Positions 11,986 to 57,984 of a DNA stretch of 64,000 nt are shown piece by piece; within the stretch, counting starts at the first letter, position 1, and each line of letters opens with the position of its first letter. Under the pieces are notes generated by a model. The model did no database searches and was not told the DNA's origin. It worked only from the letters and a program-made list of their open reading frames with translations. Source of the stretch: Branchiostoma floridae (lineage: Eukaryota > Chordata > Leptocardii > Amphioxiformes > Branchiostomatidae). The translations under genes were made by a program, and so were the position numbers. The stretch covers positions 27,199,737-27,263,736 of the forward strand of contig NC_049982.1 in NCBI RefSeq assembly GCF_000003815.2, written 5' to 3'.

Positions 11986-11989
11986 ACGC

Positions 11990-12110
11990 TATTTCAGATA
12001 CTGCAGTTTGAATCCTCTGTCCGTCGACTTGATGCCCCTAAATACCGATTTTAAGAACAACGAATATAGGTTACCTCACAGATAAAGGTGAATGAGCATT
12101 ATATAGGTTA
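11990..12110. repeat. Relic of the TAACGCTAG-family MITE
   Basis: Contains CCGTCGACTTGATG, ATATAGGTTACCTCACAGATA and AAAGGTGAATGAGC in the order found in full copies, but the left end is degraded. It abuts the preceding TIR element. Confidence 0.6.
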
Positions 12111-23500: not shown

Positions 23501-26500
23501 TCTTTTTTATTGTATCAACAAGGCTTATCATTATGCTAAACGTAGAATTTTTTCTAACTGTTGATTTGTTCAAATTATGTGTATTTCCCTAACATTGTCA
23601 CCGAACAGTGTGGAAAGCCTTTGTGCCCGTCATTCCGTGAAGGCACGGGGCCACTTACATTTTCGGGCCCTAAGACCGTCAAGCCGGAGCAAAATTACCC
23701 CCAGGGTACCTTATGGGTCACCTGCGGTGTACTATATAAAGCGGGCCTGATCAATAGAGGAAGGGTCCGACAAAGGGCCTCGCTACTCACTAATATTTTC
23801 TAATATATGTCCCCAATTCAAATAACTTAAAAATTTCTGTTCAGAGCACGGAGGTTAAAAAACGATTTTCAACCCCCTTTCGTGTGACCAAAGAGCTATT
23901 ATCAAGAAAAAAACTCTTAGGTGTGAGAAAGAATGAAGCATAACATTATTGTATCGACTTCACTGTCGAGTGTATTTGCATACCTGACACCTACATACTA
24001 AATATCCTTTGTTTGAACGAACAGTGGACCTCTGGCGTCGCCAGCCCAAGCCGGGAAGTACTAGCCTCCGTCGCAGACTACGCGGGATTGGATTTTATCT
24101 TACGGGGCCGTGCAAATAAAATACTAAGGATAGGATGACTACTTGACCGGTAGAGCGAGTCTACGACAAGAAATGGCCCTTCTGCACTATATTACTACCA
24201 GAACTGTACCACCGACAAATAACCGACGTCGTAATAGTGCGAAGTTTTCCACCCTGTGTCTTATGTGTCTTTTTTGTATTCTACAAATACACTTTTATGG
24301 CTCAACAAAGCAAAACAAAACGAGGCAAATCATACACATGGACATAATAGGGACTTTATGTTCATAGCGATTATACATTACTTTCACAATGCCGTTGTTG
24401 TCCAACAGAATTAAAGTGTGATCCAGTGAATTTCCTACCATCTTTCTGGTACTTTTGTGATGTCTTTTAGTGAATCTGCACGTCCATTTGTTAGTATTTT
24501 TGACCTAGAAGTCCGTGATGTTGTAAATTCTTTTGTCTGAATTTTCGCTTGGCTTGGCTTCGAGTGCCGCCATTTTGACCCCCAGTATCTAATGTTCATA
24601 GCGATTATACATTACTTTCACAATGCCGTTGTTGTCCAACAGTATTAAAGTATGAACCAGTGAATTTCCTATCATCTGTCTGGTACTTTTGTGATGTCTT
24701 CCAGTGAATCTGCACGTCCAATTATTACTATTTTTGACCTAGAAGTCCGTGATGTTGTAAATTCTTTTGTCTGAATTTTCGCTTGGCTTGGCTTCGAGTG
24801 CCGCCATTTTGAACCCCAGTATCTAATGTTCATAGCGATTATACATTACTTTCACAATGCCGTTGTTGTCCAACAGTATTAAAGTGTGAACCAGTGAATT
24901 TCCTATCATCTTTCTGGTACTTTTGTGATGTCTTTTACTGAATCTGCACGTCCATTTATTAGTATTTTTGACCTAGAAGTCCGTGATGTTGCAAATTCTT
25001 TTGTCTGGCTTTGAGTGCCACCAGCCAATTTGAACCTCACTAGTTTTTATAGCGTTATATAGTGACTTACAAAAACAAATTCGACTGGATGTGCTGCTTT
25101 GTGGCTATAGAATGATGTTCATATTTTTTCAATGAAGAGTATTTGCGATTGATTGCTGTGTGCTGTTGGGACGGTGTTCGTGATGAAAATATATCGTAAA
25201 ATGCTTTGTGTTTGCAGGTGAAAGAGCAAAAACGAATGATCTGTTAACGGTTATTGTAACCTTATCAGATTGTTAACTGCGTCATAAGGGTAGGGGTGTA
25301 CCTTTCAACTGAAATATCTACATGTAATATATATATATATATATGATATATATATGCACTTAGACAAAAACGGGATGAACTTGACGCTACTCTGTTGTTT
25401 TAGGTTAGTACATTAGTTTGTACCACTACAGTATGTATGTTAACTCGTATACTGTTGCCAGAAAGTGTATTGTTTTAATGTTTGTGTCTGCTGCAATGTC
25501 ATAGTCGTAAAGTTTTAAAATTTGGGTACTCTTGAAGTCGTCAAGCGACCCATGATCACGTGCATAACAGTGGCCAATCATGCAATGTCCATCATTATTA
25601 ACCAATCACAGAATACAGAATGTAGTTTAAAACTTAGTACATTTTCGAGACTACTCGTGATCACGTGCATACCAGTGGCCAATCATGCAATGGCTACCGT
25701 GCTTAACCAATCACAGCTAGCGTACACTCGTTTGGTGCTCGGTTTGAATTGGATTGCAGTCATAACGACATTTGACTCGAGCAGTGAACCACCTTGTGTT
25801 TTCGTTTCCTTCCAATATGTCATCTAACTTCTCTACTCGCGGTTTTTACCGGGACGAAAACGAGGGCCGGGCACGACAGACCACGCCTCAGCACAATCGG
25901 ACCGCTGCGTTTTTAACACCGCCTAGGACGGAGATCGGCAACAGGGAGCTCCTCTCTTGCATCCAGAACTTGGTCCGAAGTACCGCGACTCCCACACCCC
26001 GCGGAGGGCAGAGGGCGCCTTCAGTACCCTCTCTGCCCCGAAGAAGTACCCCCAGGATCGGGCCCGGTATCCTCTTGCAGAATACAGCAACCTCCCGCCC
26101 ACCAACACAAACAGGATCCCAGGACGCTGCTTGGACTTCTATGACAACGCTAGTTTAGATGGATTCAATGCAGCTCAGCGCGTTGAAGACCAGGATTACA
26201 TGTGTAACCCTGAGGACAGCTTTACCGTATTGTAGAGTTCATGTAAATCTAACTCCAGCATGAATAGCTGGAGGGTTTGTCTTTAGTTATCATCAGAATG
26301 TTCTGCTGGCAACTGTAAGGATTGGTTCTAAATGATTGTAAAATACGCCATGATGTCCATAGCTGTAGGAAATTGTATAAACTGATTGTAAAAACTTGTT
26401 TTTAATATCAATAGTTGTAACGTTATGCTTATTTTTAGAATGAATGTAAGTTGAGTTTGTTTTCAATAACTGTAAAAATTCGTTTCCAATGATTTTAGAA

Positions 26501-28590: not shown

Positions 28591-31500
28591 CCATGATGAC
28601 GTTATGAAGCCTACATCTGTGACAAGTTGGGACCATGAGTAACATGGGTCCCCTCCTGTCTGTACCACTCTGCTATGGAGCCCTGGTGCTGTTCACTGCC
28701 ATCCTACACAACGTGTTCCTCATCTACTATGTGGATGTGTTTGTGTCAGTCTACAAGATCGACAAGATGTCCTTCTGGATCGGGGAGGTAAGAATCAACA
28801 TACTGGTCATCCTAAACACCTAAAACAAAATCAAAATCCAGAGCGCCACACAAGATTGCCCCAAGTACTAGTACACTATTAGAGCGGTTTGAGGTTGTTT
28901 AAAGTCATTGGAGGTGTTCAGGCAGACCTTTAAGATACTGTAAACCCATTTATTTTGGAGGTATCTCATTTTGCGATAGGACCAGAGATTAGTTTTCCAT
29001 GTTGCTTCAAATTCACAGTTGAAACAATTAATTGACAGGGCAAAACATGTATTTGCGTCTTTTGCGATTTTGAATGGTATTGTGGTGGAGAGGCAGTTTT
29101 CAAAAGCCACAAAAATAAAACGGTTAACCACCAAAGATATTTTAAGATTTACAGTAACAGCTGTTCCCAGCTGGTAAGTACTGTACATGTAATTTAGTGT
29201 TTGTTTGTTTGTGTCCACTCAGGCAAAGGTTTGGCTCTGGTTTGTTTTGGACATTCCCTTGGTGTACTGTTGTAGTAAGCTTACTACAACAGTACACCCA
29301 TGGTTCTGCGACTGTTCCCTCGTTTATATATAACAACAGGTCTGTGTAAAGGGCCTCAGTAAGCTGATGCCTTAATGGTCTAAGGTCAGACAGCTGAACT
29401 TGAGATAGTTCCAATGCATTAAGAGAGGTTGAAATGGTGTGCCCTCCCCTTTCAGAAAAGGGCATACAGACTTTCTTTCAGAATACAATAAAGCCATACT
29501 GATTCCATTATATGGATGACATCATCTGGGCATCCCGAACGATGTGAGTGTGGGAAGAAAAAAATTGTTTCATTTTGATGAAATTTAAGGGCTTTGGAAG
29601 GTTGAGCAAATGTCTGAACTCACAGAACAATGAATTCTTTGTCTCCTTTGACTTTGGAAAACTTCAATCATTAGTTATTTTCCAATATTTACAGCATATG
29701 TTTGCTCATTTTGAAGCTTATTTGTACAATAGATTAATGGTATGGCTGCATATTCAACATTCTCTTGTTTTGGAAACGTGCAGGCGGACATCATCCATAT
29801 ATCCAAGTCAGTTTTGCCTAATGGCAAAGGTACAGGAGCTGATTTGTTTAGATCTTCTCTGATCCATTGAATGTATTTCTCCATGCCTTTTCAGACCATT
29901 TTCCTGATCTGGAACTCCCTGAATGACCCATTGTTTGGCTGGATGAGTGACAAAGGCTTTCTGCAGGCAGATAGGTGAGCAAGGCAAATAGAGACCCTTT
30001 TAGTTATCTAACCACATACATGTATATCCTGTTGTAATTTGGGTCCATCTCTATCCTAAAACAGCTCAATGTGTGGCATGATGTAAGGCCATACAAGATG
30101 CAAATTTTGAAATGACCAGACAAGACATGTAATTTTTTGGCGATGCCTCTGGGGCTAGCCTAAAAGTATATAATAAATTTGTTTGACCTTTTATACATAT
30201 TTTTTGTCTTACAGCTCATCCGACCATGGCTCTTCACCCCAGATTGTCCTGAGGCGTTTCCGCGCCCTCTTCATAAACGGACCGCTCTTCGCTCTCTCGT
30301 TCCTCACGTTCTGGGTGGCGTGGGCCGTCCCGGCCGTCCAGTTCGTCGTGTGCCTCTGCCTGTACGACACATTCCTGACCATGGTCGACCTTCACCACAA
30401 TGCCTTACTGGCCGACCTGGCCGTCTCGGACAAGGAGCGCACCAGACTCAACTCCTACTGTTCGATATTCAGTGCCTTTGGTTCGCTCTCGGTCTTTCTC
30501 TCCTATGCAATATGGGACAAGGAGAACCTGGGAAACTTCCGCGTCTTCTGTGCAATATTAGTGTGTATTTCTATCAGCGGATTTTTTCTATGTACAGTTT
30601 GGATGAAGGGACAGTTCATACACAGGCACCAGCAGAAAGAGCCGGACCCATTGCAAAGGTGGGTTCCCCTCTATTAGAATAGTTCTGATATGTGAGATTT
30701 ACAGAAATTAAAAGTTTTTGAAAAAGTATTATAATAGAATTATAGTACTACATGTATGTGAATGAAGCTATCCAGGATTGGTTAGTTGACTTTTCCCCAT
30801 CCAAGGTACAAAACCCTCTCAACTTTCCCAAATCAAAACTCACATAAGCATGAAACCATTCTGATTAATAGTCATATTGATTGATATTAATCTAAAATGC
30901 AATTTCAACATTAACTTTGATAATACACAGGAGATTATTTAAAACAATCTGAAGATCTTTTGCAACAATCTGCATGGAGATTTGAAAAATAATCTCCAGA
31001 TTTTAAGAAAAAATTCGCCAGATCTTAAGAAAAATTCCTCGGATTTTAAAAAAATCTCCAGATTGTAAAAAAATCTCCAGATTTTTTAAAGAACTCCAAC
31101 TGTGCGAGACGGCCAACCAATTTTCCAATGGGTGGCCACATTGATTTTTTAATGATAGCTATTGAGAAATCTTCACGTTAACGTAGTGAGTTTGTACTTC
31201 CAGCATCCTTGTGTCCAGTTCCTCGGGCAGTCCTGGTGTCCAGCTGAGTGTGAGAGGCTACTTCAGACAGCTCATGGCTCACAGGAACTTCCTGTGGTTC
31301 ACGGCCATGAACCTGGTGCAGGTTTTCCACTGCCACTTCAATAGCAACTTCTTCCCGCTGTTCCTGGAGAATCTGCTAGAGGGCATCCCACCTTCAGTGT
31401 GCTCAGTGCTGCTGGGTAAGTCACGTGTTCATTATGTGTTAAAATTCTAACTGGAAACTGTGACTCCACTGCCCACCCCAGGAAAGGCTAGCGCTTGCAG

Positions 31501-34500
31501 GGTTTTTCCTCGGGTAATTTGGGAAACAGGAAACACAACATACTTTTTTTCCTAGTAGGCCTTAAGACCCCCATTGGAACAATGAAAGTTACTGAAGTTG
31601 CTCAAAATACTTTTTTTCAGCCAGGTTGCTCAGGTGGCAACATTAGTCAAAAGCAAGGCTGAACCATCTACATTTAAGATTACCTCACTTCCCACAAGAT
31701 ATTCAAGTCAGCTACTATCCATTATCTTTTCTTCCTGTTACATGTAACTACTAACTTATGTTTTATGTTATCAAGATAAAGCTTAAATGCCAAAAATGAA
31801 GTTTTGGCCTAAGCTACCTGGCTTTAAAATTGTTATTAATGCGCCAAGCAAAATGTGGTTGCATTTGCAAGCGTGCAAGTGGTTATTTCGCGCACTTGTT
31901 TCTTGTACACTTTTAGCAAGTCAGCCTTGGGATACTACAACACACAATACTACCCAAAACTTTTCCTGTTTCAGGTATTTCATTTATTTTCCCCCACATC
32001 AACAACCTGTACTTCCTGACGCTGTGTCGGAGGTACGGTACGTACGCCGTGATCCGCGGGCTGTTCCTGGTCAAGCTGGTCCTGAGTACGGCCATGATGA
32101 TGGTGGGACCGGACTACACATGGGCACTCTGCTTCTTTATAGCCAGGTCAGCTAGTTCACCTTTATCTGTGGGGTAACCTATATTCATTGTTATAAAAAT
32201 ACTGCACCTGGGCACTCTGCTTCTTCAAGCCAGGTAAGTAAGCTCATCTTACTCTAATGCTAGTTCACTTTTATCCGAGGGGTTACCTAACATGCACTGG
32301 CATAATACCGGCACGTTTACGACGATTTCTCTAGCCATACTGATTTGACAAATTGTCAACGCATCATTTTCTCCAGTTACATGTTGCTGTTATAGCTTAT
32401 CCTTGCCACTTCTTCTGTGTATTTTTTTGTCTCTCTTGTCCTGCTAAAAGCGTAATATTGCAATTGTAACACGCCGCGTAATTACACGGCAAACGGGCGC
32501 GTGGTTGGGAGGGGGGAAAATACCGGCCGGAAGAAACACGGCACAATTAACCTCCGCTATGTACCTTTATACATCCTCTGATGTTCCTTCCTTTTCTGTT
32601 AGTAAATGCATAAAACATAAACCTACTTGAGCATACAAAAAGTCATGGGAAAACGGACGTATACTGTCAAGAATTTTCACTTAACTTTTGTCTGTCACAA
32701 CCGCTATGACGTAACACTTTACTGCTAGCGTCGATATAAAATGGCAGGAAAATGTCGGCGTATTCTCAATTTTGCCCATTCAGTCGTAGATCCGGGCGAT
32801 AATGCAACAGTTCTTCACATTTTTACACGAGTTGTAGGTCACCAACAGAAATTCAAGATTGCTGTTGAATCATGTTCGTCTTGTGCCGTGAGCATGCGTA
32901 ATTATGATCTACAAATCTGGCAATGAATGTGACAGTGTGTTCGTCCCATGACAAGCTGCCTGTCCCGAAAAACATACTGAAAACTTTTGGCCTTGTTGTC
33001 TTTGAATGCATTGTTATCGATGCTTTGTAAATGATGTATTGGGCACCTAGATGTCTGAAGTGTGCACAGCTCAGAAATAACTATTGTTGCATGTGTAGAT
33101 CTCTTTAAATTCCATTATTTTTGATCGGCCGGTATAAGTCTTACTGCCGGTATTATGCCAATGCATGTTATATCCATTGTTAAAAAAAAAGGTATTTTGG
33201 GGTATCAAGTTGACGGTTTCAAACTGCAATAATTTGAACATTTTTTATTTGTTGAAAATGTTGCACCGTCAGTCATCTGATACCCCAAAATACTCTGGTT
33301 TTATTTTAAAACAATGGATATTGGTTACTGCATTGGATAAAGGTGAACTAGTATTAAATTCTTTCACTTTTGCAATGACTTACTTTTGAGGTAGGAGGAA
33401 AAAAGGACCTTTCTGCAGTGTTTGAAGTCTGCAGGTGAAACAATTCAACAATTCATATATACTATATATATCTACTTTCTGTACATTACAATTTATCTCA
33501 ATCCTGCATGATGGGCATTAACTCTAGATCTGTGTATGGAGTCTATGTTATCGGTGTCTGTTTACTAGTACTGTAAATGTATTAAAGTTCGCGGGGATTT
33601 GATTTCATTGGAGCGGGAAAAAGGACTTTTTGCGGTGGTTTTTATTTCGCAGTAACACCATAGACAGTCTAATACCATTATAGAAAAATGTTCGCGGTGG
33701 TTTTAAGTTCGCGGTGAAGTGGTCACCACGAAAACTGCAAACATTAATCCACCGTGAACATTTCTGCATTTACAGTATGTTCTTGTGTGTCCATAGTTAT
33801 TTGAATACACTATCAGTAGATATGCACAAAAGCAGTGACGTAGGAAGAGAAAGGCAAAGGTCAGACATGTTGGGCAGGAAGTGCAGTTCAGAGTTGGTAG
33901 AACAAGTCATTAATCACTAGTCATTGATTGAATACTTATAGTAAGTAAGGCGTGTAGGTTTGGGCCCCTAGTGTGTGTTTCTTTTCACATTGACACTGTA
34001 GTGTCTAATATTTTCTATTTTGCTGTCCTATACAGTAACAGAGTGTTCACTGAAGGCACATGCCGACTACTGAACCTGGTAGTGAGTGATCTTGTGGACG
34101 AGGACTACGTACTGAACAACAGGAAACAGCCCATCTCTGCGCTGGTGTTCGGCATGGCGGCCTTCCTGTCCAAACCTGGTCAGACGTTAGCACCTCTCAT
34201 GGGCACATGGATACTCTCCGTGCAAACAGGTTTGTTCCTAACAGTGTTTTTACCTCCGTTAAAATGGAGATATTGTTTTTGGTTGGCTCATTCAAATTAT
34301 GAAAAAACCACAAAGCACTATGCAACATTTGAAATTCCTTTTAAAAAACAGATACATTTTATGTAAACCTGCCAACGACTGCATTATGGGAGAGGGCAGT
34401 CATAAGTATTTTGAAGTTGACAAGTCCTATTATAATAATTCTATTTTTTCCAGGCCATGATATTTTCCAGACAGGGAACAAGTTTGGTTCCATCCATGCC

Positions 34501-35560: not shown

Positions 35561-35789
35561 ATATTTGCGATCTACTTATATTTTGGGCCTTTAAAAGGCC
35601 TCTATTTACTACATGCCTCCATTTTTCCTGTCATCTCATCCATAGTGGATGGTCAAAATGAAAGTTAAGCCATAATATGGACATCCATCTAGGAAAGCAA
35701 AAATAAGAATGGAATGGGCTAAGAAATGTGCCAACTGTAAATGATCATAACATCAGCTCTCCTAATTCTGCCGGGTACCCTAAGACTGC

Positions 35790-36006
35790 TAACGTAGTTC
35801 AATTTTATCTACAGGGTAACCTATATCCATTGTTTTTGAAAAGAATGTATTTAGGAATATCAAGTTGATGGACGGTGGTTTCAAGCTGCAACATTTTCAA
35901 AATATTACTGTTTGAAACCACCAGCTGTCAACTTGATCTCCCCAAATGCTTCTTTTCAAAAGCAATGGATATAGGTTACCCCGCAGATAAAGGTGAACTG
36001 GTGTTA
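35790..36006. mobile_element. TAACGCTAG-family MITE, copy in MFSD13A 3' flank
   Basis: TAACGTAGTTCAATTTTATC at the left and CAGATAAAGGTGAACTGGTGTTA at the right bound it, with the internal pair GACGGTGGTTTCAAGCTGCA and TGTTTGAAACCACCAGCTGTC. Near full length. Confidence 0.85.
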
Positions 36007-36327
36007 TATTTGAAGAGATTTACTTAAATGCAGTATTATTAAACCTCAAGATACGGACAGACTAAAGATATCCAGGTGTTCAAGGTTGTCTGAGAAGACC
36101 TCGAGGATGACACAGTGTTTTTAAAACGGAATTCAACTCTAGAGGCGAGAGTTCTGATTCTGCAGATAATATCATTCTGCAGATCCCCTGAAAAATAATT
36201 ATATTGCCAACTTTTTTGCTAGGCAGCAGTTTTACTCTCAGGAGCAATATTCTGCTTTAAACCCCAAGTACCCTTCAGATGAATTACAGCCATGTGTAAT
36301 ATACTGTCCTGAACAACTGTAACACTG

Positions 36328-37533: not shown

Positions 37534-40500
37534 CTAAGTGGACTTTTTCTCCGGGTTCAGCCTGGCCAACAACCAGTCCAGTATGTCTTGTTTGACCATT
37601 TCCACATCTTCAGGAGTCTCCAGTAACAAGACATGCCGACAGTTCGGGTATACCTGAGTATGTGTAGAAAAAAGATATCATCAAATGAATTGTTTATATT
37701 GAAGAAAAAAACTTTATATTTTGACCCATTCATCTACATGCATAGCTTCGCCCATGGCCTATACAATTCAATATACCTTGGGAGAGGCTCTGCTAGAACA
37801 GACTGAGGTTTCCACTGTTGTGGGCGTGGCCTCAGATCAGTTGTCAGGCAATCAGAGAAACAGATTCTTTTACCTAAAGAAAACAGCAAAACCTCAGCCC
37901 AGTTTATCAGCAGAACTTTATCGAGGAATATATCATAGGCCGCATAAAAGGAAATCAGTAGCGTAAAATGAAAAGCCGGCAGAAAATAACAAAACGCATC
38001 ATTTAGTTGAAAGATATAAAATTGTGTATGTATATAAAATTGATATCTGATTTTGAATGGTAAATGCATATATATTAAAGCAGACAGGAAAAATTATCTT
38101 GACTTTGATTTTCCCCCACAATATTTCACAGAAAAAGACATTTAAAGATTCAAATCAGCATTAGCTAAATTAACAAGAGTTAACGCCAATTCACCTTTAT
38201 CAGTGGGTTAGCCTATATCCGTTGTTTTTAAAACAGGGTATTTAAGAATACCAAATCAACCTCAAAGTGCAATATTTCAAAATTATTCTTATTCAAAATA
38301 TGTTAATCTGAAACCACCGTCCATCGAGTACTTGATATCCCTGAATAACCTGTTTTTTAAAAAAAAGGATATAGACATTTAGGGTACCCCACGAATAAAG
38401 GTGAACTAGCGCTAGCCTAAGTGCAGAGTCACCTTGATTTGCTTATCCTGGCTCCTGGCCTGGTGATATAGTTTCCACGATCCGGATACGTCGACTACCT
38501 CGTCGTCTCCCCCATGTAGCACCAAGAATGGACAATCAACCTCGGGAAGTAGACTTTGTGTTGCCAGCATTCCTGTAGAATTGTAAGACACAACGTCAAT
38601 GTCTGGTCGGAATGCCGCACATTAGGAATATTACACAGCGTTGTTATGAAGTGGTGAGGTAAACTTTATACATGTAGTTGAATCAAGTTGAAGTTTATAT
38701 CACAAGTACGTTCACAATAAAACCCATTCTCCTTCGCAGAGCCAAACTCGCGGCCTGTACATTACTCTTTGGTTTCGACTCTGCGTTTTCAGCTATTGTA
38801 GCATTTTCTCATAAATTATGTAAATGGCTCTAATGTCCGCATGTTCAACTTGTTGCACATGTTGCTACCAAATGTTGCAAGAATGGAATTTTCGTCATTT
38901 AACACTATGCTAACAATTTCTCATTAATCATGTAAATTATGCAACAATTTGCATAATTGATGTCTATCCACATTTCTCTCTTTAGTAAATTTTTTAGTTA
39001 CATATGCCATGTTTAAGTACCCTAGTCTTGATGAAATACAGTAAACTGTGCTCATTGATTATGCAAATTAGCACCTGGTTTGCATTAATAGCCCTTATTT
39101 ATGGAAGGCATCTCCGACGCTACCTACAGATCAAAAATCATGCTGATCTGTCAACCCCTTCCCAAGTTATTTCCTTTCAAAAGGATGGTGCAATTGTGCA
39201 CGTGCGGACGAATTGCTGTGTAATTTCGGGAATTTTTGCCAATCGGTTTTATCTTTAACAGTAAGCCTGATATTTCTCTCTTTTAGAGTTACATATGGTA
39301 TATTTTTTAGCATTCTAGCATGAAATGCAGTGTATTTATAAACTGTCCTGTTGTGGGCGTGGCCTCAGATCAGTTGTCAGGCAATCAGAGAAACAGATTC
39401 TTTTACCTAAAGAAAACAGCAAAACCTCAGCCCAGTTTATCAGCAGAACTTTATCGAGGAATATATCATAGGCCGCATAAAAGGAAATCAGTAGCGTAAA
39501 ATGAAAAGCCGGCAGAAAATAACAAAACGCATCATTTAGTTGAAAGATATAAAATTGTGTATGTATATAAAATTGATATCTGATTTTGAATGGTAAATGC
39601 ATATATATTAAAGCAGACAGGAAAAATTATCTTGACTTTGATTTTCCCCCACAATATTTCACAGAAAAAGACATTTAAAGATTCAAATCAGCATTAGCTA
39701 AATTAACAAGAGTTAACGCCAATTCACCTTTATCAGTGGGTTAGCCTATATCCGTTGTTTTTAAAACAGGGTATTTAAGAATACCAAATCAACCTCAAAG
39801 TGCAATATTTCAAAATTATTCTTATTCAAAATATGTTAATCTGAAACCACCGTCCATCGAGTACTTGATATCCCTGAATAACCTGTTTTTTAAAAAAAAG
39901 GATATAGACATTTAGGGTACCCCACGAATAAAGGTGAACTAGCGCTAGCCTAAGTGCAGAGTCACCTTGATTTGCTTATCCTGGCTCCTGGCCTGGTGAT
40001 ATAGTTTCCACGATCCGGATACGTCGACTACCTCGTCGTCTCCCCCATGTAGCACCAAGAATGGACAATCAACCTCGGGAAGTAGACTTTGTGTTGCCAG
40101 CATTCCTGTAGAATTGTAAGACACAACGTCAATGTCTGGTCGGAATGCCGCACATTAGGAATATTACACAGCGTTGTTATGAAGTGGTGAGGTAAACTTT
40201 ATACATGTAGTTGAATCAAGTTGAAGTTTATATCACAAGTACGTTCACAATAAAACCCATTCTCCTTCGCAGAGCCAAACTCGCGGCCTGTACATTACTC
40301 TTTGGTTTCGACTCTGCGTTTTCAGCTATTGTAGCATTTTCTCATAAATTATGTAAATGGCTCTAATGTCCGCATGTTCAACTTGTTGCACATGTTGCTA
40401 CCAAATGTTGCAAGAATGGAATTTTCGTCATTTAACACTATGCTAACAATTTCTCATTAATCATGTAAATTATGCAACAATTTGCATAATTGATGTCTAT

Positions 40501-43500
40501 CCACATTTCTCTCTTTAGTAAATTTTTTAGTTACATATGCCATGTTTAAGTACCCTAGTCTTGATGAAATACAGTAAACTGTGCTCATTGATTATGCAAA
40601 TTAGCACCTGGTTTGCATTAATAGCCCTTATTTATGGAAGGCATCTCCGACGCTACCTACAGATCAAAAATCATGCTGATCTGTCAACCCCTTCCCAAGT
40701 TATTTCCTTTCAAAAGGATGGTGCAATTGTGCACGTGCGGACGAATTGCTGTGTAATTTCGGGAATTTTTGCCAATCGGTTTTATCTTTAACAGTAAGCC
40801 TGATATTTCTCTCTTTTAGAGTTACATATGGTATATTTTTTAGCATTCTAGCATGAAATGCAGTGTATTTATAAACTGTCCTCATTAATTATGCAAATTA
40901 GCCCCTGATTTACATGATTAGCATTTTATTATGTAAGGTAACTATCTACATTCCAAATATGAAGATCCGTCAAGCCATTTCCGAGTTATTCCCCTCTAAA
41001 GGGATGATTCAACTACACATGCTTATAGAAAAATTCCTGACATGCCTGCGGAATTTGGGGAATTCTTGTCAAACGGACGCTCTCTATACTATTAGGCTAG
41101 CCCCTGAGGCGTCGCCAAAAACGCAACCGTATTCAAAAGAAAGAAAGACCACACGCTTCTCAACAACAACACAATTATTCCTCTGCAATCACAGCTCAGA
41201 TCTATGTGTCTTTGCCAAGTTTATCAAATTTTCTCTCTATTGTCTAATACTTCCCAGAGAACCCTTGTAACCTGCATCCCGCAGGACAGGTCAGGGAGCA
41301 GGTAAAGTTAAATAAAATATGAATTCAGGCTACAACACACACAAACACGCGCGCGCGCGCACGCACGCACAGATACATGCACACACACGCGGACGCACGC
41401 ACACACACATGGAAATACGCAAACAACACACACGCACGCAAACAACACACACGCACGCAAACTACGCACACGCACGCAAACAACACACACGCACGCAAAC
41501 AACACACACGCACGCAAACTACGCACACGCACGCAAACAACACACACGCACGCAAACAACACACACGCACGCAAACAACACACACGCACGGAAACTACGC
41601 ACACGCACGCACACACACACACACACACACACACGACGTCGAAAATTCCATACCGTATAAAAATTTCATTCCTATGCGCATTGTGCGTACTCCTTGAGAT
41701 ACCAATGGGTCCTCTACATACGTTTTGAGCTGAAAAACAAATACAACAAAGTCAGTAAATAATTATAAGGCCACTGCAAGTAAATTTTATGGATGACATC
41801 CTCCAGGGACTCCAAATTTAGTGAGATAGCGCGGGAAAAAAACAAGGCGGGCCAAAAATGACAAGATTCCTACATATTCAAATTTTGAGATCATAAACCT
41901 TACAAAACAATTATCGAGGTGACAAAACATGATATCACAAGCAACAGATCTTTTATTCCTGTATTCAACATCATTACCTGTCCTTGTAGTTGTGTATCCA
42001 TCCCCATTCATCAATAACTTTAAAGTCAAGAACGATTGTGGAAAGAGCTTGTCCTACCATCATTGTCATACCAACAAATCCTGAAAAAAGTTTGTCATAC
42101 TATCACGGGTAGCAAGTATACTGGATATTCATATGCGATTGAACACCTTATAAACTGTCTACATATGCCATAAAACACAAACAATTGCAAGACATTCATG
42201 ACATATTTGTCAATTTGCGGCATGTTGATTTTCTTGTTTTTTATTTTCAAATCAGCCGAAAATTAACGCGCGCGCTGATGTCATCCATAAAATTTACTTG
42301 CTGTGGTCTAACATGCAAAAACATGAATGATGCACCACTTGGAATGCCATCATTGTAATTTTTTACGTTTTTTAGAAGGTTATGTTTTCGGTAGCGTATG
42401 TGTGTGCGTCAATGCATATATCTGTGTATGTATGCTTGTGGATTGACAGTATAACTCTAGATGGCCTAGATGTATTGTACTGATGTTTGGTATGTGGGTT
42501 GGTAACCTTGAAATTGAGATATTGTGCCCCCTAGCGGTTTGTTACAGTAATGCGACGGAACGTCCTGTTTTGATATCTCGAGTTCTTGACATGCTACGGT
42601 CGTGATTTTTTAGGGGTCGTAATTTTTTTTTATCGGGGGGAGGGCAGCAGGTAAGTGGTGTAGGTTCTGGTCCCCTTGCAGCTTATTTTTGGAACTGCAG
42701 GAGCCGGTTTAGTGTCAGACTTATATTGTTTGACGGATTGTCATGATTTTGGTGAGTGGAAAGCTTAAGTGATAAATACCTTTTCATTGTCCTTGGTAAG
42801 TTGGTCTGGACAGAGACCCCACTGTTCCATATTTGGTAATATCTTGGAGACGACCCATACCAGGGCCCGCTGGAAACGATGGAACGGATGAGTAAAGAAT
42901 GATATGGATTTGATGAAGACGTCACTGATTTCGAGAAATACAATCTAATCATATCAAGAATGACAATAACTTCTTTCCACACTATCTTTCTCATCTGAAA
43001 ATGGAGGAGAATGGAGGAAAACTAAAAAGGCAACATTTGCGAGCAAATACACAATAGTCAACTTCTAGCCTAGCAAAATACTGTTAACGTCTAGCCTTAC
43101 AAACTTCTCTTGTTGTGACCAGCCCTTCCAATTGTGTCCTGCCACTTGCTACATAATGTAATCGAACAGTACAGGGTGTCTGCTAGACTGCTACTATACC
43201 AGTAACCATGGTGACAGTCGTCTTGTCACTGGCCTTATTTGCTCGGAACGCCGGAAGAAGGGCAAGAAGAAGAAGAGGAAGAAATGGGGAAAAAACAATA
43301 TGTTTCCCTTCCATGTGGGTAAACATAACATACAAATGAGTAGGAACAGGTGACGGCGTTCTCAATAGCGGGTGACGTCAGCACCATCCCGGCGAACTGA
43401 CCCGGACGCTTGCATGCTGCAACTATCGCCGCACAGCCTCCCTGTGGGGGACAGAATTTGTATAGAAAACAAAATAAACCCTTCTTCGACCGATATACGA

Positions 43501-45757
43501 ATCATACAGTTAAAACTTAAAAGAATCAGTTTTGACAATTTACAAAGTGAAGAACCGCTAACAGTTTTCAGCATGCGTATTTCCTAACTTGGTCAGTCCC
43601 CTATTACTATTCGACCAGGTGGGATTCTGCTAGAGACTACAAAAACAACAGAACCAAGCGGTTAGCCTGCTAGAAATATCTATCTTTAAAGCTGTAACGC
43701 TAGTTCACCATTATCCGCGGGGTAACCTATATCCGTTATTAAAAAAGACAGCCTTAGGGCTGTCTAGTCAACGGACGGTGGTTACAAACTACAAATACTA
43801 GAGTTTGATATGGCAACGGATATAGGTTACTCCAATACTAAGAATATTGCGTGTTTGATGTAACAACGGATATAGGCTACCCGTGGATAAAGGTGAACTA
43901 GTATTATACAGAACTTGCACAATCACCTGGTGTACCGAAAGTGCGAAATGGAACGAAATGAAACTTTCCATTTCGTTCCATTTCGCACTTTTGGTACACC
44001 TATTTCGTACATTATCAAAGTTATTTTGTTGCTTTGTGTGTATTACCATTGAGTGTCCGAGCAGGAAGATCGGTACATCCGGGTATCGAGCTCGCATCAC
44101 GTCCACATGCTGAAGAATGTCTCTGGCGAGGATGTCGAAGTTTTCCACACACAGTCTCTCTCCTTCACTCTGGCCATGGCCAACTGGATTCAAATATATC
44201 ATATGGGAAAACGTTCACAGTGTTTACATTGAAGTCGTAGGAGAAATTTTAGTACCCGAAGCTCGAAGTCACAAAAAAATCATGATGTTTCACGTTTTGG
44301 CCAACATTATATCTTGATTTTACTTTACGTTTGGGACCGCATTGTTAGCAGCGACACCTACCTGCAGTGCGAAGTAGAACCAGTGAGTATTGCACAGAGG
44401 AAGGTGACAGACGGATGTGGTTGTATATGTTTTGATTGTGACTATTACAAGGATACCCGCGGCAAGTTTTTCATCACGCGTACGGTTTCAATGAAGACGA
44501 CATCACATCCATTTTATCTCATATGACGTCCAAATCTATTATTGAGAAGTAACTGCATGATAGTATGCATGATTAAAGTATGTATGTATGTATGTATGTT
44601 TACCGTGGTCATGCCCGAAGACTAAGAAGCCATGGTTGTTGAGAAGCTGCGCCAGTATGGGACCGAGGACTCCACAGTGACTTCCCCGTCCGTGAGACAA
44701 GAATAGCAAAGCTCTAGAAAGGGACAGAATGATAAGGATCTTAAACTATTATTGAAATATATACTATTATTAGAATATTTCACTATCCAAGAGACAGTCA
44801 GATATAAAGTATGAATAAACTAGCCATTCATCAGAGATTTATTACCTCCCTCCAAAAAAAAATAAGACTCAAAATAGAGGACAACACCACTTTTCCCTTG
44901 CATCAAATGCTATCTAATCAAGGCCACAGATTGTCCAGGACAAAATATACAAAAATCGGAAGTTTTTCTGCAGGGCAGGGTCAGTCCGCAAGAGGCCTAA
45001 TATCGACATCATCTACCCACATACTGAATATCAAAACAATCCATCCAGAGGTTCCAATGTTGTATCTGCGTCCCGGACACAAAACAAACAAACTGGCTTA
45101 TAATAGCAGTCTCTGTATTTGTGCTTTAGATAACAACATATGACCTTTGATCTCTTATATGTGTTTATCCACTAGATAATCCACCTTGTTGTATCATTAC
45201 AGACAGTTGTTACCCAGTTTCTGAGTAATGGGGATATTGTGCTCGAGGCACACGGGGCCCCCATTTTACGTCCCTCCCGAAAGACGTTGCAGTTCAAACC
45301 ATGGTACCGTTCCCCGGATTCAAACCGGGGTCTCCCCGTTCTGCTATGGTCATATTTCCAATCCGGTGCCGTAGCGAAGTTTGCGGAAACGTAAAACAAA
45401 AGTGTTTATCAAGAAATATACACAAATTATGCTCAGGAATAATTTCTTCATATCTTGTGTGTCTTGTGTGTCTTCCTTCCTGAATGCTGTCCGGCCGGGC
45501 CCCAGTATGAAAATACGACCGAAGCATTAACGTCTAATTGGAACATAGGAGCTCAACTCTGAAGCTGCTACCAGTTGAGATACAGACCAGAAAAGACTTA
45601 TGACCTTGATCGAAATGACGCACCTGAGTTTCTGGTTCGGTTCCCATGTCCTACAGTACAGGTACTGTCCGTCTGAGTTTACAATGTGCGGTACGGTACT
45701 GTAGCTCACACCCTGAGGCGTACAGCGGTCCGGATCTGTACCGGTTTCAGAGGCCAT
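37534..45757 (-). CDS. MGLL: Monoglyceride lipase, alpha/beta hydrolase
   Basis: A serine hydrolase that cleaves monoacylglycerols (including 2-arachidonoylglycerol in vertebrates) to fatty acid and glycerol. Minus-strand exons are 45624-45757, 44604-44713, 44047-44183, 43355-43441, 42780-42869, 41654-41729, exon 7 (38433-38572 or its copy 39966-40105) and 37534-37653. Phases agree throughout, giving about 297 aa against about 303 in human. Visible features are the oxyanion HG motif in FLSHGRGSH (exon 2), GHDH then [10 protein letters not shown] across exons 2-3, nucleophile Ser in LLGHSM|GG (exons 3-4), DPL...G (exon 6), catalytic Asp in [10 protein letters not shown] (exon 7) and catalytic His in [11 protein letters not shown] (exon 8). 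The exon 4 donor (GCC|GTCACC) is non-consensus; it was chosen because it keeps phase and alignment. Exon 7 is duplicated, as described separately. Confidence 0.95.
37770..37935. mobile_element. Short TIR element related to 11367-11985
   Basis: GGCTCTGCTAGAACAGACTG at the left returns inverted as CAGCCCAGTTTATCAGCAG at the right, with ACTGAGGTTTCC/AAAACCTCAG inside. Its right part is included in the 1533-bp tandem duplication, whose left breakpoint (37815) cuts through it. Confidence 0.7.
37815..39347. repeat. 1533-bp tandem duplication, unit 1
   Basis: Identical by eye to 39348-40880. The junction reads AACTGTC-CTGTTGTGG, and only about 2 bp are shared by the breakpoints. The unit holds a truncated TIR element, a TAACGCTAG MITE (38181-38412), MGLL exon 7 (38433-38572) and AT-rich DNA with several ATGCAAAT-type octamers. 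Confidence 0.95.
38433..38572 (-). other. MGLL: MGLL exon 7, distal copy
   Basis: 140-nt exon with acceptor CTACAG and donor AAG|GTGACT. It enters in phase 1 and leaves in phase 0, and encodes the catalytic Asp motif HGGDDEVVD. The exon is not symmetric: if this copy followed the other in one mRNA, the frame would shift and meet a stop after about 11 codons (GGT TGA). Only one copy can be used per functional transcript. Confidence 0.9.
39348..40880. repeat. 1533-bp tandem duplication, unit 2
   Basis: Second unit, with MITE copy 39714-39945 and MGLL exon 7 copy 39966-40105. No difference from unit 1 was noticed. Either it is very recent or it is an assembly duplicate of one locus or allele. 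Confidence 0.95.
39966..40105 (-). other. MGLL: MGLL exon 7, proximal copy
   Basis: Same sequence and splice sites as 38433-38572. In transcript order it comes first after exon 6 (41654-41729). Exon 6 ends TAC G| and this exon supplies GA, making the Gly codon that continues into [11 protein letters not shown]. Confidence 0.9.
41328..41636. repeat. CA-rich minisatellite in MGLL intron 6
   Basis: Many copies of CACACGCACGCAAACAA with variants containing CTACG, ending in plain (CA)n. It begins about 18 bp inside the intron after exon 6. ORFs on both strands rich in Cys/Val or His/Thr/Arg are products of the repeat. Confidence 0.95.
41771..42306. mobile_element. 536-bp TIR element, ATGGATGACATC family
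   Basis: 30-bp ends with one mismatch: CCACTGCAAGTAAATTTTAT continuing GGATGACATC at the left, and GATGTCATCCATAAAATTTA continuing CTTGCTGTGG at the right. It lies in MGLL intron 5. On the minus strand, 41980-42080 looks like an exon: TTTTTCAG, about 102 open nt, then CAG|GTAATG. It does not match the lipase. Confidence 0.88.
43110..43215. repeat. Dispersed repeat, relative of 9620-9740
   Basis: Shares GTGTCCTGCCACTTGCTACA, then TAATGTAATC, GTGTCTGCTA and CATGGTGAC in order with the copy in the zinc-finger gene. It lies in MGLL intron 4. Confidence 0.6.
43695..43906. mobile_element. TAACGCTAG-family MITE in MGLL intron 3
   Basis: TAACGCTAGTTCACCATTAT and GGATAAAGGTGAACTAGTATTA bound it. The inner GGATATAGG motif occurs twice, at 43818 and 43868, so the right part is internally duplicated. 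Confidence 0.88.
43929..44000. repeat. Near-perfect 32-bp hairpin in MGLL intron 3
   Basis: Arms 43929-43960 and 43969-44000 are inverted with a single mismatch (a G-U pair in RNA) around an 8-nt loop. The arm starts GGTGTACCGAAAGTGCGAAA. It lies 22 bp after a MITE and 47 bp before exon 3 on the + strand map. Size and shape would suit a small-RNA precursor, or it may be a tiny MITE. Confidence 0.85.
44320..44400. repeat. Dispersed repeat shared with 60220-60300
   Basis: TTTGGGACCGCATTGTTAGC and AGCGACACCTACCTGCAGTG recur with small changes at 60230-60275, followed in both by GAA-TAGAACCAGT-AGTAT. No known family recognised. Confidence 0.6.
44572..44600. repeat. (GTAT)n microsatellite at the MGLL exon 2 donor
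   Basis: Tetranucleotide run ending two bases from the exon 2 donor; on the minus strand the intron begins GTAAACATACATACATAC. Length variation here would change the sequence just after the splice site. Confidence 0.8.
45140..45400 (-). repeat. tRNA-headed SINE-like repeat in MGLL intron 1
   Basis: On the minus strand a box-B-like GGTTTGAATCC follows GGGGAGACCCC near 45330, then a body with GAGGGACGTAAAATGGGGG, CCTCGAGCAC and CCATTACTCAGAAACTGGG. The body matches the 5S-headed repeat at 50345-50625. A second partial tRNA-like head (CTCAACTGGTAGCAG, minus strand) lies at 45540-45600 and resembles 59485-59595. Confidence 0.65.
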
Positions 45758-47240
45758 TTTACGTCACACTGATTAAACATTAACGTGTTGACCTTTGTCA
45801 CTCATTCCACGGAGATCATGAGCTTACGGTCATACATAACAGCTGATTCAGTTCTTTTTACAACTAAACGTTTTCTTAAAAAAGGACATCTGAAATGTTG
45901 ATGACTTGACATTATGACATGAGAAACAAATGTACAGGATTGGAGCAAAAATATTGCGTCTTATTTTTGGAAATTAGACTTTGCGTATTATTTTTAGGGA
46001 CTACTGTATTTGGCCGTTTATGGTGTCCATTTTGAAGATGTAGCCATCTTGTTTTTTTTAACAAATTGTTCAGTCTGTCGATGATGAAGATCCATGGAAT
46101 AAAGTTCTTGTGGCCTTAGTATAGAAAACGTTTTTCTCCAAAATGTTCAATGTTGTAAATACGTAGACACAGCAGAAGTATTGTTTTTGTCCGAAATGGA
46201 GAATGTGTAACCTTTCTTTCAACGTGTTCAGATCAAAACAATAAGGAACCATATAATGTTAGCAATGATATGATTAGTCTCAATTGTACAAATGACTATG
46301 TTTGAAATCCAATGTGAGTAATTGTACCTTTAGCTCACGACGGCAAACTATTTGATTTGGTCCTCTGTCTCTGCTGATGTCGTTATATATTAAAATCACC
46401 TGATGTCGTGGTCTACAAGACAAAAGCAAACACTTGACCTCGTTGGTCACATTTTTGTTAAGAAACACTTATCAAAAAGAGAACGGGTGTGAGTGAATCA
46501 AAACCTAGTTCTTTGGCCACGCCTGGGTAAATTGCTGTCGTATTGAGGTCACCCGAGTTAGCGCCGAATGGCAGATCACTCTAGGACCTTACTGTTTCAG
46601 GAAGCCTACTTGTAATCTGCTTGTAATTCAGCCCCTGGCTGCGAAAAGGGTGTAGTCGACCCACCCAGTAACAGACCGACAGCTACAGGTAGCGAACTAC
46701 CGATACAGGGCAAACGCATCGATTTCATGTCGTGGGATTTTAATCCCTTCACCAATCCTGCCCTGTTACTGCTCTAGAAACCATACATGTCTGTTCAGAA
46801 TGACTCATTTTCCTGTACGCTACTCCCATGCGTTAAATATGCATCTATTTATTTATTCAATTCAGATCTGTACTCTTTAACCATGGTAACTCTCTCAGTG
46901 GCTAAGCACTGCATTCCATATACAGTGTTTGCATAGTTCAATAAATGTATATACATAACAAACAAAGACCATCATACAAAACAAAATCATATCCATGCTC
47001 TTAGTCGTTATCCGTACCATAAATCCTAAGATCAGGGGTCAGATGTCAGCATTGATGTTTTTAGAAGTTTCTTTATAAAGAGTGGTCAGTTGTGGTCACT
47101 CTAACGGAAAATGCACCTCTGTATGCAAATTTCATTCAGCCAGATTCGAGTCTGACTTTAGGAAGCTGCAATGATATATTTGTATTGTACCAAGTTGCAT
47201 AGAAGTGAAACGTTCTATCAAATGTTTGGCCGGGAATGTA
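45758..47240. other. Intergenic region upstream of MGLL
   Basis: Contains the MGLL promoter, presumably just above 45757, although no TATA box is evident. No gene was recognised; ORFs are short. Ends at a mobile element. Confidence 0.5.
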
Positions 47241-48125
47241 ACATGCATTGGCATAATACCGGCCATAAGCCTTATACCGGTCGATTAAAAATAGTGGAAC
47301 TTAAAGAGATCTACACATGCAACAATAGTTATTTCTGAGGTATGCACACTTCAGACATCTAGGTGTCCAATACATAATTTACAAAGCATCGATAACAATA
47401 CATTCGAAGACAAAAGGCCTAAAGTTTTCAGGTCATTTTCGGGGCAGGCGAACTCGTCGTGGGACAAACACACTGTCACGTTCATCGCCAGATTTGTAGA
47501 TAATAATCACATGTGCTCACGGCACAAGACGAGCATGATTCAACAGCAATCTTGAATTTCTTTTGGTGACCTACAACTCGTGTAAAAGTGTGAGGAACCG
47601 TTGCATTATCGCCCGGATCTACGGCTGAATGGGTCAAATTGAACGTACGCCGCCATTTTCCCGCCATTTTTAATGCTACGGCCAGCAGTAAAGTTTTACG
47701 TCATAGCGGTTGTGACGGACCAAAATTAAATGAAAATTCTTGTCAGTATACGCCCATTTTCTCATGACTTTTTGTATGCTCATGCAGATTTTTGTTTTGT
47801 GCAACTACTAACAGGAAAGAAAGGAACAACAGAGGATGTATAAAGGTACATAGCGGCAGTTAATTGTGCCGTGTTTCGTTCGGCCGGTATAGTGCACTCC
47901 CTTCCAACCACGCGCCCGTTCTCCGTGCAATTCCGCGGTGTGTTCCAATTACGATATTATGTTTTTAGCAGGACCAGAGAGACAAAATAATTTACACAGA
48001 AGAAGTGGCAAAGGTAAGCTGTAACAGCAACATGTAACTGGAGAAAATGATGCGTTGATCATTTGCCAAATTAGCATTGCTTGAGAAATTGCAGTAAACC
48101 GACCGGTATTATGCCAATGGATGTT
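47241..48125 (-). mobile_element. 885-bp TIR element with TA duplication, copy B
   Basis: Reverse-orientation relative of 32290-33168: ends ACATGCATTGGCATAATACC and GGTATTATGCCAATGGATGT, flanked by TA on both sides. The ORF at 47482-47667 on the minus strand (MAGKWRRTFNLTHS...) is homologous along its whole length to the copy A ORF, ending LQIWR versus LQIWQ. Non-autonomous; not inserted in a recognisable repeat here. Confidence 0.9.
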
Positions 48126-48594
48126 ATATCAAGGACGCAAAATGGTAAGGAAAATACTCAGCAAAATAACAACAAAACATGAATCAGTATGACGTAGGTG
48201 CGTGGGATTTTTACACACGGATATTCACTGCTGCACGGAGTTCCACGACCCCATACCTTCGCCAAATGATCCTAACCTTTACAACTGCTGTACTAATTGT
48301 GTTTGTCATTAATCATGCAAATATGGTCCTTATTTGCATAGATTATTTCAGTTGATCATCTCCTCCACCAGATACCAGACGTACACAATCTATGTTAAGA
48401 AAAAAGGCTTTTATCGCATTTCCTGATAATTTATGCAAATGAGGATCTCAGAACAGCAGTTTTTTAAAATTCTAGATCATGTGAAGATAAACATTAAACA
48501 TTATATTTCAAATGCTGCATTTCTAGCTGTTTACCATTCCTTGTAAAAGGTATGAGGAAAAATGGACAGGTGAGCATGATTTTCCTGCAGGTGG

Positions 48595-51700: not shown

Positions 51701-54700
51701 GTAGCAAACGTAACCGGTAACGTTTGTTACCTGCTCTGTAATGCATTACCGATGGGACCGAAAATAATACGTTGCCATTTTTGGCTATGGTTAAAAGAGG
51801 AATTTTTCCTAAACAACCAGGTAGTTTTCACTGAAAATAAAGCCGATTTATTTTTTGACCAAAAAAATGCCATTTTCGACATTTCAATGAGAACGAGTGT
51901 TATACGGCCAGTGGGCTTCAATTTGAAGTACCTGATAAAGGAGCCCCGTGACTGTAGAGAAACACCGCCGGTGCTGTTTTGAAGGCCAGCCAGTTCGACA
52001 CGCCGGAGGTAGCCGCGACCTTGTCAGCGAGGAAACTTTGCTGCTGCTGGTCTGTTATATCCACCAGGTGACCGTCCTGAGCTCGGCAGGCTCGGGCCGC
52101 GTCAAGGTGGGCAGCAGCGGTGGGGGAGAACTGGTAACATTCTCCGGCAAAGATCACTGGAATTTGTGAAAAAGAAAAGTTAACAGACATTTCATTTCAA
52201 TTCAATTTACTGTACTCATATAGTAAGGTTCTAACACGACCAGGATTGTACTCACTTGTAGTCTTGCTGCTTAACATATGGCCGATGAAGGTGGCGCTGT
52301 AGCAGCAAGAATGCCGCCCCAAACGCATTCTCCTACGCAAAGGAACCACAGTCGTGTCAAAACTTACTGTGTTTACGTCTGCTACCTTGTGCACTCAGAC
52401 CAGTTAGGGACCGGCCTACTTATAAATATTAATGAGCTTGCCCTTATATGGGCAGTCAGCCGTTGGGGATCGGGCATAGGAGGATGGAGCCATGTGATAC
52501 GTAACATGATTGGCTGATAGCTTCCCAGCGGCCTTTGCGAGACAGCTTGCGACAACAACAAGCCCAAGAAAGGCCTATTCTCTGATTGGTTGACAGCTTG
52601 TTTGTGGCGACAATCATAATAACCACTGATAGGGCATGAGATAGCAGGGCCCCATAGGCTAATGCCGTTGGGGACCGAGCGTTAGGACCGGGCGTTAGGA
52701 GGATGCCCCAAACGTGGCTCAGTTTGTATCCCCCCTCGTCTCTGTTCATGACTGGAGCTGAGCCACGTTTGGGACGGCATTTTTGCTGCTGCAGCGCCAC
52801 CTACATCGGCTATAAATATAAGCAAAAGAATCAGATCCAGCCATTCTAACCCTGATGATGGTGTCTGACAGACATCGAAACGTTGGAAGGGAGTCCGATT
52901 CTGGTTGTGTTTTGAAGAACCTTACTATATGAGTAATTTACCAACCTGATGTAACTATAAACGGATCAATTCACCTGTAACGTTATAGAGAAGGTAAGTT
53001 ATGAAACAATAACAATAAAAGAAAACATGGCTGGGGTGGATGGACAGAAACCTTCAAGTTGTCTTTCGTTTTGTGGGCCGCCCTCAAACTTGAGAATAAT
53101 ATTGCAATTAGATGTTCAGAATTCGCTTTATTGTTGCGCACCTGTTATAAGATGTAACCCTAAGTAAAGGAGACCTGAAGGTGGACCTCAAAATTCTTCG
53201 TCTTCTTCTTTTAACCTCATTAGGCTAAGGGCTACAAGCACGGTACGTAAGGCGTATACAGGACTGTAAGTTTTGATTCACTCACACCGGGAAGGTTCCC
53301 TATACTCTTTCCGATACGTCTGGCGGGTTCTATTACGCGCGTGGGATTTTAAAGGTCCATCCAGATGAAAGTCAGTATCAACATAGGACTTAAAGAACGA
53401 TATTTTGGGGAAAGAGATGTCTGGAAGGAGAGGGTGGACTTGGTCCGGGCAAGCAGCCCGCAATGATGATGATGATGATGATCAACATACACATCGCTGT
53501 TTGCTATGTTGCTGTTCGGGTGAAAGCAAAAGAAAACCTTACCGTATGGCCGATAAATATCCTACCCGTTTCACAGTTCTTCCCGGTGACATCTTCAGGA
53601 CAGGCACAGCTGTAGCCGTTCACGTGATCGAGGCAGGTCCCTCCCAGCCAACAAGGGTTGCTCGCACACTCGTCTATGTCTGAATTATAGTAAATAAAGA
53701 CTCAAAGATGATTCCAGAATCTGATGAACCATAACATTAGAAGCGTCTTACGCAGTTACCATGTCAACCGATGTAAATGATTAGAACCTAGGATGTGCAC
53801 AATCGTTGATGTCAGCTTATACTTGCATATGTTGCTTTAACAGAAAAGCGCTCGCTGACCTTGATCACAGTTGTGTCCGGTCCAGCCGTCCTCACAGGTA
53901 CACGTCGAACCGTCTGTACACGTTCCGTGGACACAGACACACGCAGGGGCTGGAGACAGAGATGTGTAACACTAGTTCACCTTTATCCGCGGGGTAACCT
54001 ATATCCGTTGCTTTTTTTAAAATGGGGTATTTAGGGGCACTATGTCGACGGACGGTGGTTTCAAAGTACAATATATTAAAAACATTGCATTTTGATTAAA
54101 CAACGGATTTAGGTTACCCCGATATTTAACACCATTGCAGTTTGATATAAAAACGGATATAGGTTATCCCGCGGATAAAGGTGAACTAGCGTTACATCAA
54201 GTTTGTCATTGGCTTCGAGAAGGAAACGAAACGAAGCACAAGATGCAGACTGGGACGGATCTTCAGTGCTGTCTACTGCTGTATGTTTCACCACTCCTAG
54301 CCCCGTCCAATTTCTGCCAAGTCATCATCAATTATTGTTATTTCCTTAGTAATTCAAATTTCATGCGTCTTCTGACCTTACATGTCGGATCATAACCCCC
54401 ACCCCACCCCGAAAAAGGGTGAAAAAAGAGAAGTTGACAGCGTCTTTTGACACGACATCGAGGCTTCATCCTCACCTGCACACAGCGCGTACATGTCGTT
54501 GTAGTTTCCTCCTTGCAGGCCTGTGGTCTGAGTGTCGTAATCCACTCCGTACGCACCGTACAAGCTCCAGCCAGGGATGTACACAAAGGTGTCATCAAGC
54601 GGCTGACACTGACTGCCAGCCCCGTCCGTGTGTCCACACAGCTCACTCGAGAGAGCCCCGAGCGTTGTACATTCGGCATGGTGAAACGTGATGCAGTCTG

Positions 54701-57029: not shown

Positions 57030-57255
57030 TGATTAAAAATGCCTCCGCTTACTTGTGTTGCGATGGGACCTGGACGATAATAGCTTGGAAGAAAAAATGC
57101 CTCAGTTTACTTGTGTTGCCATGGGACCTGGACGATAATAGCTTGGAAGAAAAAATGCCTCAGTTTACGTGTGTTACCATGGGACCTGGCCGACAATAGC
57201 TTGGAAGAAAAAATGCCTCAGTTTACGTGTGTTGCCATGATACCTGGGCGGTAAC
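57030..57255. repeat. 58-bp tandem repeat, about 3.5 copies
   Basis: AATAGCTTGGAAGAAAAAAT recurs at 57079, 57137 and 57195. A single diverged unit with its left flank (CCGAATCAACGTTGTTGAC) reappears at 58160-58265. Confidence 0.9.
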
Positions 57256-57984
57256 AGGTTGGATGTGTAGTAGAGTAGTAGTAGTAGACTGGTTTGTTAA
57301 GCAAGCGTATATACGCATAACAGGCCTCCAAGCAGTCTGGAAGGATGAATAGCGAGGACATTATAATAGTGTATCATGCAAATGGAAAACTTTGTGAATG
57401 ACGTTAAAACAATGGATCAATGTTAAAATCATAACAATAGTTTCTAGTTGAAATACAATTTTGGAGGAAGTATTACGAATTTGTTGTGTTGACCTTAAGA
57501 TATTGAAAGAATTCTGCTATTCACAGGCTTAGAATTTACATAGACTTTAAAAACTTAAACAAGACAAATTTGTAAAAGCAAGTTCGTAGGTAACCATGAA
57601 GAGGCAATAATAGGAAAAGTGTAATAGTGTCAGTGAGGAGTAAAGTTCAGCTTGAGTTCATTAAGCGTTTCCACAATGGCCGGGATGGCGCTTTTCTTGT
57701 AGCAGAGAGTGCGGGGACGGAGTGTTGTTAACGTGACGGACGACGTATTGTTGAATAAAAGAAGACCTTTATTGTACAGTTTTGCCCAGCCTAGCTTAGT
57801 ACAGGTCACAACGAGCAACATATATACATATAAAAGTATCACAAGTCTAGTCTAACACAAACGTTTGGCTTCTTCTCGCTTCTTGGTAATGGTGAAAATG
57901 TAGGACTGTATGGGTTTAGCTATTGTCGGTTTGTCAAAACGCATGAAAAATATAAACATGTGTCTAAAATGGGGGAATCTACTT

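Follow-up and report, generated by a model that had tools for sequence, protein, structure and literature searches.

In the human LRBA gene, an intragenic tandem duplication that includes exons 38-39, is joined through a 3-bp microhomology and is expected to lead to loss of function has been reported (PMC8602677). Adjacent, near-identical genic copies within one scaffold have also been described as products of genome assembly, namely homotype and gap-fill false duplications (PMC9516828; PMC2864568). In mutually exclusive exons that arose by tandem exon duplication, too, neighbouring homologous exons break the reading frame when used together (PMC5740500; PMC6071210). We analyze here a stretch of 64,000 nucleotides of amphioxus (Branchiostoma floridae) DNA, referred to as the window, in which exon 7 of a predicted MGLL-like monoglyceride lipase gene lies within an exact tandem duplication. 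The best explanation is an intragenic tandem duplication of very recent date, a type of event that as a rule disrupts the affected gene copy; we assign it a probability of about 0.52. A false duplication introduced by the assembly is a close second. An earlier note on this DNA had reduced the problem to these two alternatives, and that choice was sound.

The amphioxus duplication shares with that of LRBA the tandem, head-to-tail arrangement, the copying of an intron-exon-intron block, an out-of-frame exon and a microhomology of a few bp. According to its report, the LRBA duplication was proven by reads, polymerase chain reaction (PCR) and droplet digital PCR, spans 12.3 kb, includes an in-frame exon besides the out-of-frame one, and is homozygous in patients (PMC8602677), whereas the amphioxus duplication comprises a single exon and is known from sequence alone. 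Homotype and gap-fill false duplications are reported to be mostly gap-separated and of low read depth (PMC9516828; PMC2864568); the copies studied here are joined without a gap. They are also unlike established mutually exclusive pairs, in that the two exons are identical and a mechanism of exclusion is not evident. Be it a frame-shifting intragenic tandem duplication or an assembly error, the structure is of an already known, ordinary kind.

An exact tandem duplication in an MGLL-like gene

When the window was compared with itself at an offset of 1533, a single unbroken match run of 1535 bases was obtained, starting at position 37815. A run of that length at that offset gives a unit of 1533 bp and a breakpoint overlap of 2 bp. 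The two units are identical at 1533/1533 bases, including a run of 6 T next to one of 8 A, so that the identity previously described from appearance holds for every base. A BLAST search of the window against itself recovered the tandem as a 1535-bp match with 100% identity. Head-to-tail orientation, adjacent copies and sharp ends, as looked for in a young tandem duplication, are present in the sequence. The overlap, already estimated at about 2 bp in the earlier note, is the dinucleotide CT, found at 37815-16, 39348-49 and 40881-82.

37815..39347, no strand: duplicated unit, transcript-downstream copy, 1533 bp
39348..40880, no strand: duplicated unit, transcript-upstream copy, 1533 bp, immediate repeat of the former
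39346..39349, no strand: unit junction 39347/39348, with the 2-bp microhomology CT and no N

The only run of undetermined bases (N) in the window is located at 1683-1782, away from the junction. Exactly repeated 100-mers amount to 1503 in the window, 67 of them outside the tandem; among the matches listed for the latter (5 of 67), positions 737-741 pair with 6988-6992. No other full-identity repeat within the window approaches the tandem in length, and this length rules out chance as a credible origin of the identity.

The gene that carries the duplication is located on the minus strand and comprises eight exons, from 45757 to 37534. It was found by tblastn with a human MGLL query, which located parts of exons 1-4 and both exon 7 copies; exons 5, 6 and 8 were obtained from reading frames. 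The gene is a prediction, based on homology and splice signals.

45624..45757, minus strand: exon 1, coding part, with the start codon (gene model)
44604..44713, minus strand: exon 2 (gene model)
44047..44183, minus strand: exon 3, ending inside the GHSMGG motif, with Ser126 (gene model)
43334..43441, minus strand: exon 4 (gene model)
42780..42869, minus strand: exon 5 (frame reading and gene model)
41654..41729, minus strand: exon 6, phase 1 at its end (frame reading and gene model)
39966..40105, minus strand: exon 7, upstream copy, 140 nt, phase 1 in and 0 out, with Asp242 (tblastn and gene model)
38433..38572, minus strand: exon 7, downstream copy, identical (tblastn and gene model)
37534..37653, minus strand: exon 8, coding part, with His272 and the stop codon (frame reading and gene model)

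The model that uses one exon 7 copy has 304 codons, with all introns GT-AG and in phase. The predicted protein and human MGLL agree at 123/287 aligned columns (43%). A phmmer search against PDB matched its residues 10-296 to MGLL with an E value of 1.2e-75, the top matches being seven distinct MGLL sequences (5zun and 3hju among them; E 1.2e-75 to 3.1e-75), and Pfam Hydrolase_4 matched the model with an E value of 2.3e-65. Ser126, Asp242 and His272 align with the human MGLL residues which we take to be the catalytic Ser-Asp-His triad; the protein is thus homologous to MGLL over residues 10-296 with the triad positions kept, and differs from it in that 43% of positions are identical to the human sequence. 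Exon 7 encodes residues 220-265, including Asp242, and exon 8 encodes His272. Both homology and alignment hence bear out the proposal that the duplicated exon is the one carrying the catalytic Asp of MGLL, and the exon length, the phases and the presence of one copy per unit (40105-39966 and 38572-38433, both with GT-AG sites) are also as first described. A literature search on amphioxus monoglyceride lipase returned nothing relevant. The gene is flanked by an inverted pair of sequences, 32288-33173 and 47236-48126, of about 890 bp and 87% identity.

Reading frame and choice between the exon 7 copies

When a single exon 7 copy is used, the frame stays open throughout. If both are used, a stop follows residue 290, once 25 codons of the second copy have been read and ahead of the catalytic His, which gives an exact place to the early stop that had been anticipated; if neither is used, the frame stops after residue 232, inside the last exon. 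Joint inclusion thus breaks the frame, a property looked for in mutually exclusive exons. The stop codon generated by double inclusion begins 65 nt upstream of the last exon junction. Nonsense-mediated decay usually needs a stop more than 50-55 nt ahead of that junction, a rule which the 65-nt distance only just satisfies.

Both exon 7 copies have the same donor, GTGACTCTG, and the same GT-AG sites, and the distance between copies is 1393 nt. The donor AAG/GTGACT agrees with the consensus at 8/9 positions, which equals the donor of exon 1 and exceeds those of exons 2-6 (5 to 7 of 9); such a strong donor argues that both copies are recognised. As the sites are identical, good and 1393 nt apart, most transcripts should carry both copies. 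Splicing in of both copies, with the frame ending thereafter, is the default expectation predicted from these sites.

The earlier note had concluded that the locus must choose one copy, by forced mutually exclusive splicing. The frame constraint represents a need to choose if the enzyme is to be made; it is not a mechanism by which the spliceosome could choose. A real, working mutually exclusive pair, kept as such by the frame constraint, by decay of double-inclusion transcripts or by RNA competition, is improbable. The length of 140 nt speaks for it, since double inclusion and double skipping are both non-functional, and frame-breaking lengths are common among human mutually exclusive clusters, where 377/629 (60%) have been reported with exon lengths not divisible by three (PMC5740500). 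The gain in product is nil, however: the exons are identical, and choosing between them leaves the protein unchanged. Established mutually exclusive pairs encode variants. A steric clash is ruled out by the 1393-nt spacing, the criterion, a distance from donor to branch point below about 50 nt, being judged here from the distance between the copies. A U2/U12 conflict is ruled out as well, since the GT-AG sites are the same in both copies and the donors do not show the U12 pattern.

The remaining mechanism is RNA competition. Ivanov and Pervouchine proposed that duplication of one arm of an intronic stem generates two selectors for a single docking site (PMC6071210), and a complementarity matching this pattern was found in intron 6, the site listed below being its weak candidate for a docking site.

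40883..40920, minus strand: candidate docking site in the unduplicated part of intron 6; its complements in the units are 40458-40495 and 38925-38962

The complementarity score between this 38-nt element and its in-unit partners is 50, above all 100 shuffles in each of two controls: with a shuffled flank the mean was 34.2 and the maximum 48, with a shuffled unit 33.0 and 44, and 0/100 reached 50 in both cases. On the intron 7 side nothing was found: its best score, 31, was matched or exceeded in 18 and 16 of 100 shuffles. The in-unit partner at 38922-38962 is itself self-complementary, with a score of 40; element and partner belong to a partly self-complementary repeat family, and their pairing is therefore explained without function. 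In a single partition-function fold, restricted to 41150-38400 and run with no shuffled control (the rest of intron 6, intron 7 and the lower part of the downstream unit were left out), the near partner accounts for 12.9 of the expected paired bases of the element and the far one for 0.7 (about 18 to 1); the element further pairs with the sequence next to it, around 40931-40961, at about 0.48. Complementarity is present, but the fold disfavours a balanced competition, and the case for RNA competition between the exon 7 copies is weak. With steric clash and U2/U12 conflict excluded, forced mutually exclusive splicing is unsupported. Even less probable than a working pair in general is an exclusive pair caught at birth, with zero divergence and an active gene, in which the copied stem arm would let 40883-40920 pair with either unit and so provide at once the competition that Ivanov and Pervouchine proposed.

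Origin of the duplication

The flanks of the left and the right breakpoint show chance-level matches only. Unequal crossing over at a shared repeat is therefore rejected, as the earlier note had argued; the short overlap on which it drew is uninformative by itself, as with equal base frequencies some 16% of random joins would show an overlap of at least 2 bp. A degenerate repeat lies across the right breakpoint.

40814..41076, no strand: degenerate tandem repeat across the right breakpoint, offset 291 bp, 65.7% identity to unit positions 1176-1432

There is, thus, no sign of recombination between repeats; the absence of flank homology together with the 2-bp overlap is consistent with a non-homologous join, and an arbitrary join made by the assembly also fits.

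Each duplicated unit carries one copy of a palindromic family of about 220-260 bp that resembles miniature inverted-repeat transposable elements, with ends close to GTTCACCTTTATCCGCGGGGTAACCTATATCC. Literature searches with the repeat sequence returned no amphioxus paper and an unrelated human one.

1045-1305: palindromic family copy
35786-36008: palindromic family copy
38170-38425: palindromic family copy, repeated in the tandem copy
43690-43908: palindromic family copy
53960-54195: palindromic family copy
56258-56476: palindromic family copy
near 11988-12103: partial palindromic family copy

This family occurs inside the unit and recurs at six or more other positions of the window (one copy being partial), which would suggest that the second unit arose by capture of exon 7 by a mobile element and insertion beside its source. 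The unit ends differ, nevertheless, from those of the palindromic element, the units stand head to tail with nothing between them and an overlap of 2 bp does not exceed what chance would give; given so perfect a join, capture is held to be very unlikely, the least probable of the origins considered.

Far more serious is the explanation by which one unit exists at the locus and was written twice, because contig ends overlapped or a gap was filled incorrectly. The absolute identity across 1533 bp, homopolymer runs included, is what such an error would leave, the right breakpoint falls inside a degenerate repeat, and the gene model with a single unit is complete and conserved. Incorrect gap filling is reported to join false duplications on occasion (PMC9516828), and Kelley and Salzberg described two haplotype contigs placed next to each other, with a misplaced contig that made three exons look duplicated (PMC2864568). 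The junction, on the other hand, is free of a gap, although a gap between the copies is usual (not constant) in false duplications. In the most frequent kind, both alleles are retained next to each other, and differences between the copies would be seen. With the amphioxus heterozygosity reported as 3.2-4.2% (PMC12862219), 49-64 allelic differences are expected over the unit, and about 8 at a heterozygosity of 0.5%; 0 are observed, which rules this kind out. Only the identical-copy kind fits, which is reported as the rarer one in two of three older assemblies (PMC9516828). True allele-specific tandem duplication within a contig is described in the same source (PMC9516828). Should the duplication be false, it stands as a warning, since annotation would report a nonexistent exon duplication or a broken lipase.

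We lean slightly towards a real duplication over a false one. Zero divergence counts for it: among segregating tandem duplications in Drosophila, zero divergence was reported in 1,560/1,920 (81.3%), "assuming most were not false positives" (PMC6380325), and is hence usual among segregating duplications. In passages of the amphioxus pangenome paper (PMC12373286), neither the word "tandem" nor a usable rate occurs. At the reported amphioxus mutation rate of 5.89e-9 per base per generation (PMC12862219), the absence of differences limits the age to less than about 166,000 generations, or roughly 5% of 2Ne (Ne, effective population size); if real, the duplication is young. In the very young intragenic duplication that we favour, a 1533-bp stretch comprising exon 7 and the adjoining parts of introns 7 and 6 would have been copied once, head to tail, and joined with little or no homology, either by end joining or by replication-based template switching, leaving the 2-bp overlap. 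Transcripts including both exon 7 copies would change frame, stop after residue 290 and lose the catalytic His; they would probably be non-functional and possibly targets of decay. Normal enzyme may persist at a residual level if one copy is at times skipped. Rather than being fixed, the duplication is probably carried by a rare allele. What the window shows is the exact repeat, the gene model with its frames and splice sites, and breakpoint flanks devoid of homology; from these we infer its existence in the DNA of the animal, its origin, splicing and frequency, and its effect.

The following points weigh against this explanation. An assembler or gap filler making an exact mechanical copy would produce the same picture. 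The acceptor tract of exon 7 is middling, with 13/20 pyrimidines. Moreover, reads joining both exons are reported in only 83/377 frame-breaking human clusters (PMC5740500), and so few joint reads point to other controls at work in many such pairs.

If real, the amphioxus duplication would add a case in which a recent exon duplication has disrupted a gene copy, and would offer a system in which to see whether exclusive splicing can arise before the exons diverge.

Other features of the window

No tRNA (transfer RNA) or Rfam matches at gathering score were found in the window, and of nine proteins from it that were compared with Pfam, five lack a match up to E 0.01. A long open frame at 14504-16609, on the minus strand, is homologous to MMS19 (E 2.8e-132 to PDB 6tc0), and an open frame at 30177-30674, on the plus strand, matches the MFS_2 sugar transporter family (E 2.4e-10). 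A long minisatellite with 65-bp and 130-bp periods occupies 2832-4772; further arrays are located at 24358-25007 (234 bp), 57035-57263 (58 bp) and, within intron 6 of the MGLL-like gene, 41417-41628 (19 bp). The sequence at 251-1676 directly matches 6540-7565 in pieces, with about 87-93% identity, and ends 6 bases short of the N gap at 1683-1782; it is a dispersed repeat or else an allele left uncollapsed next to the gap.

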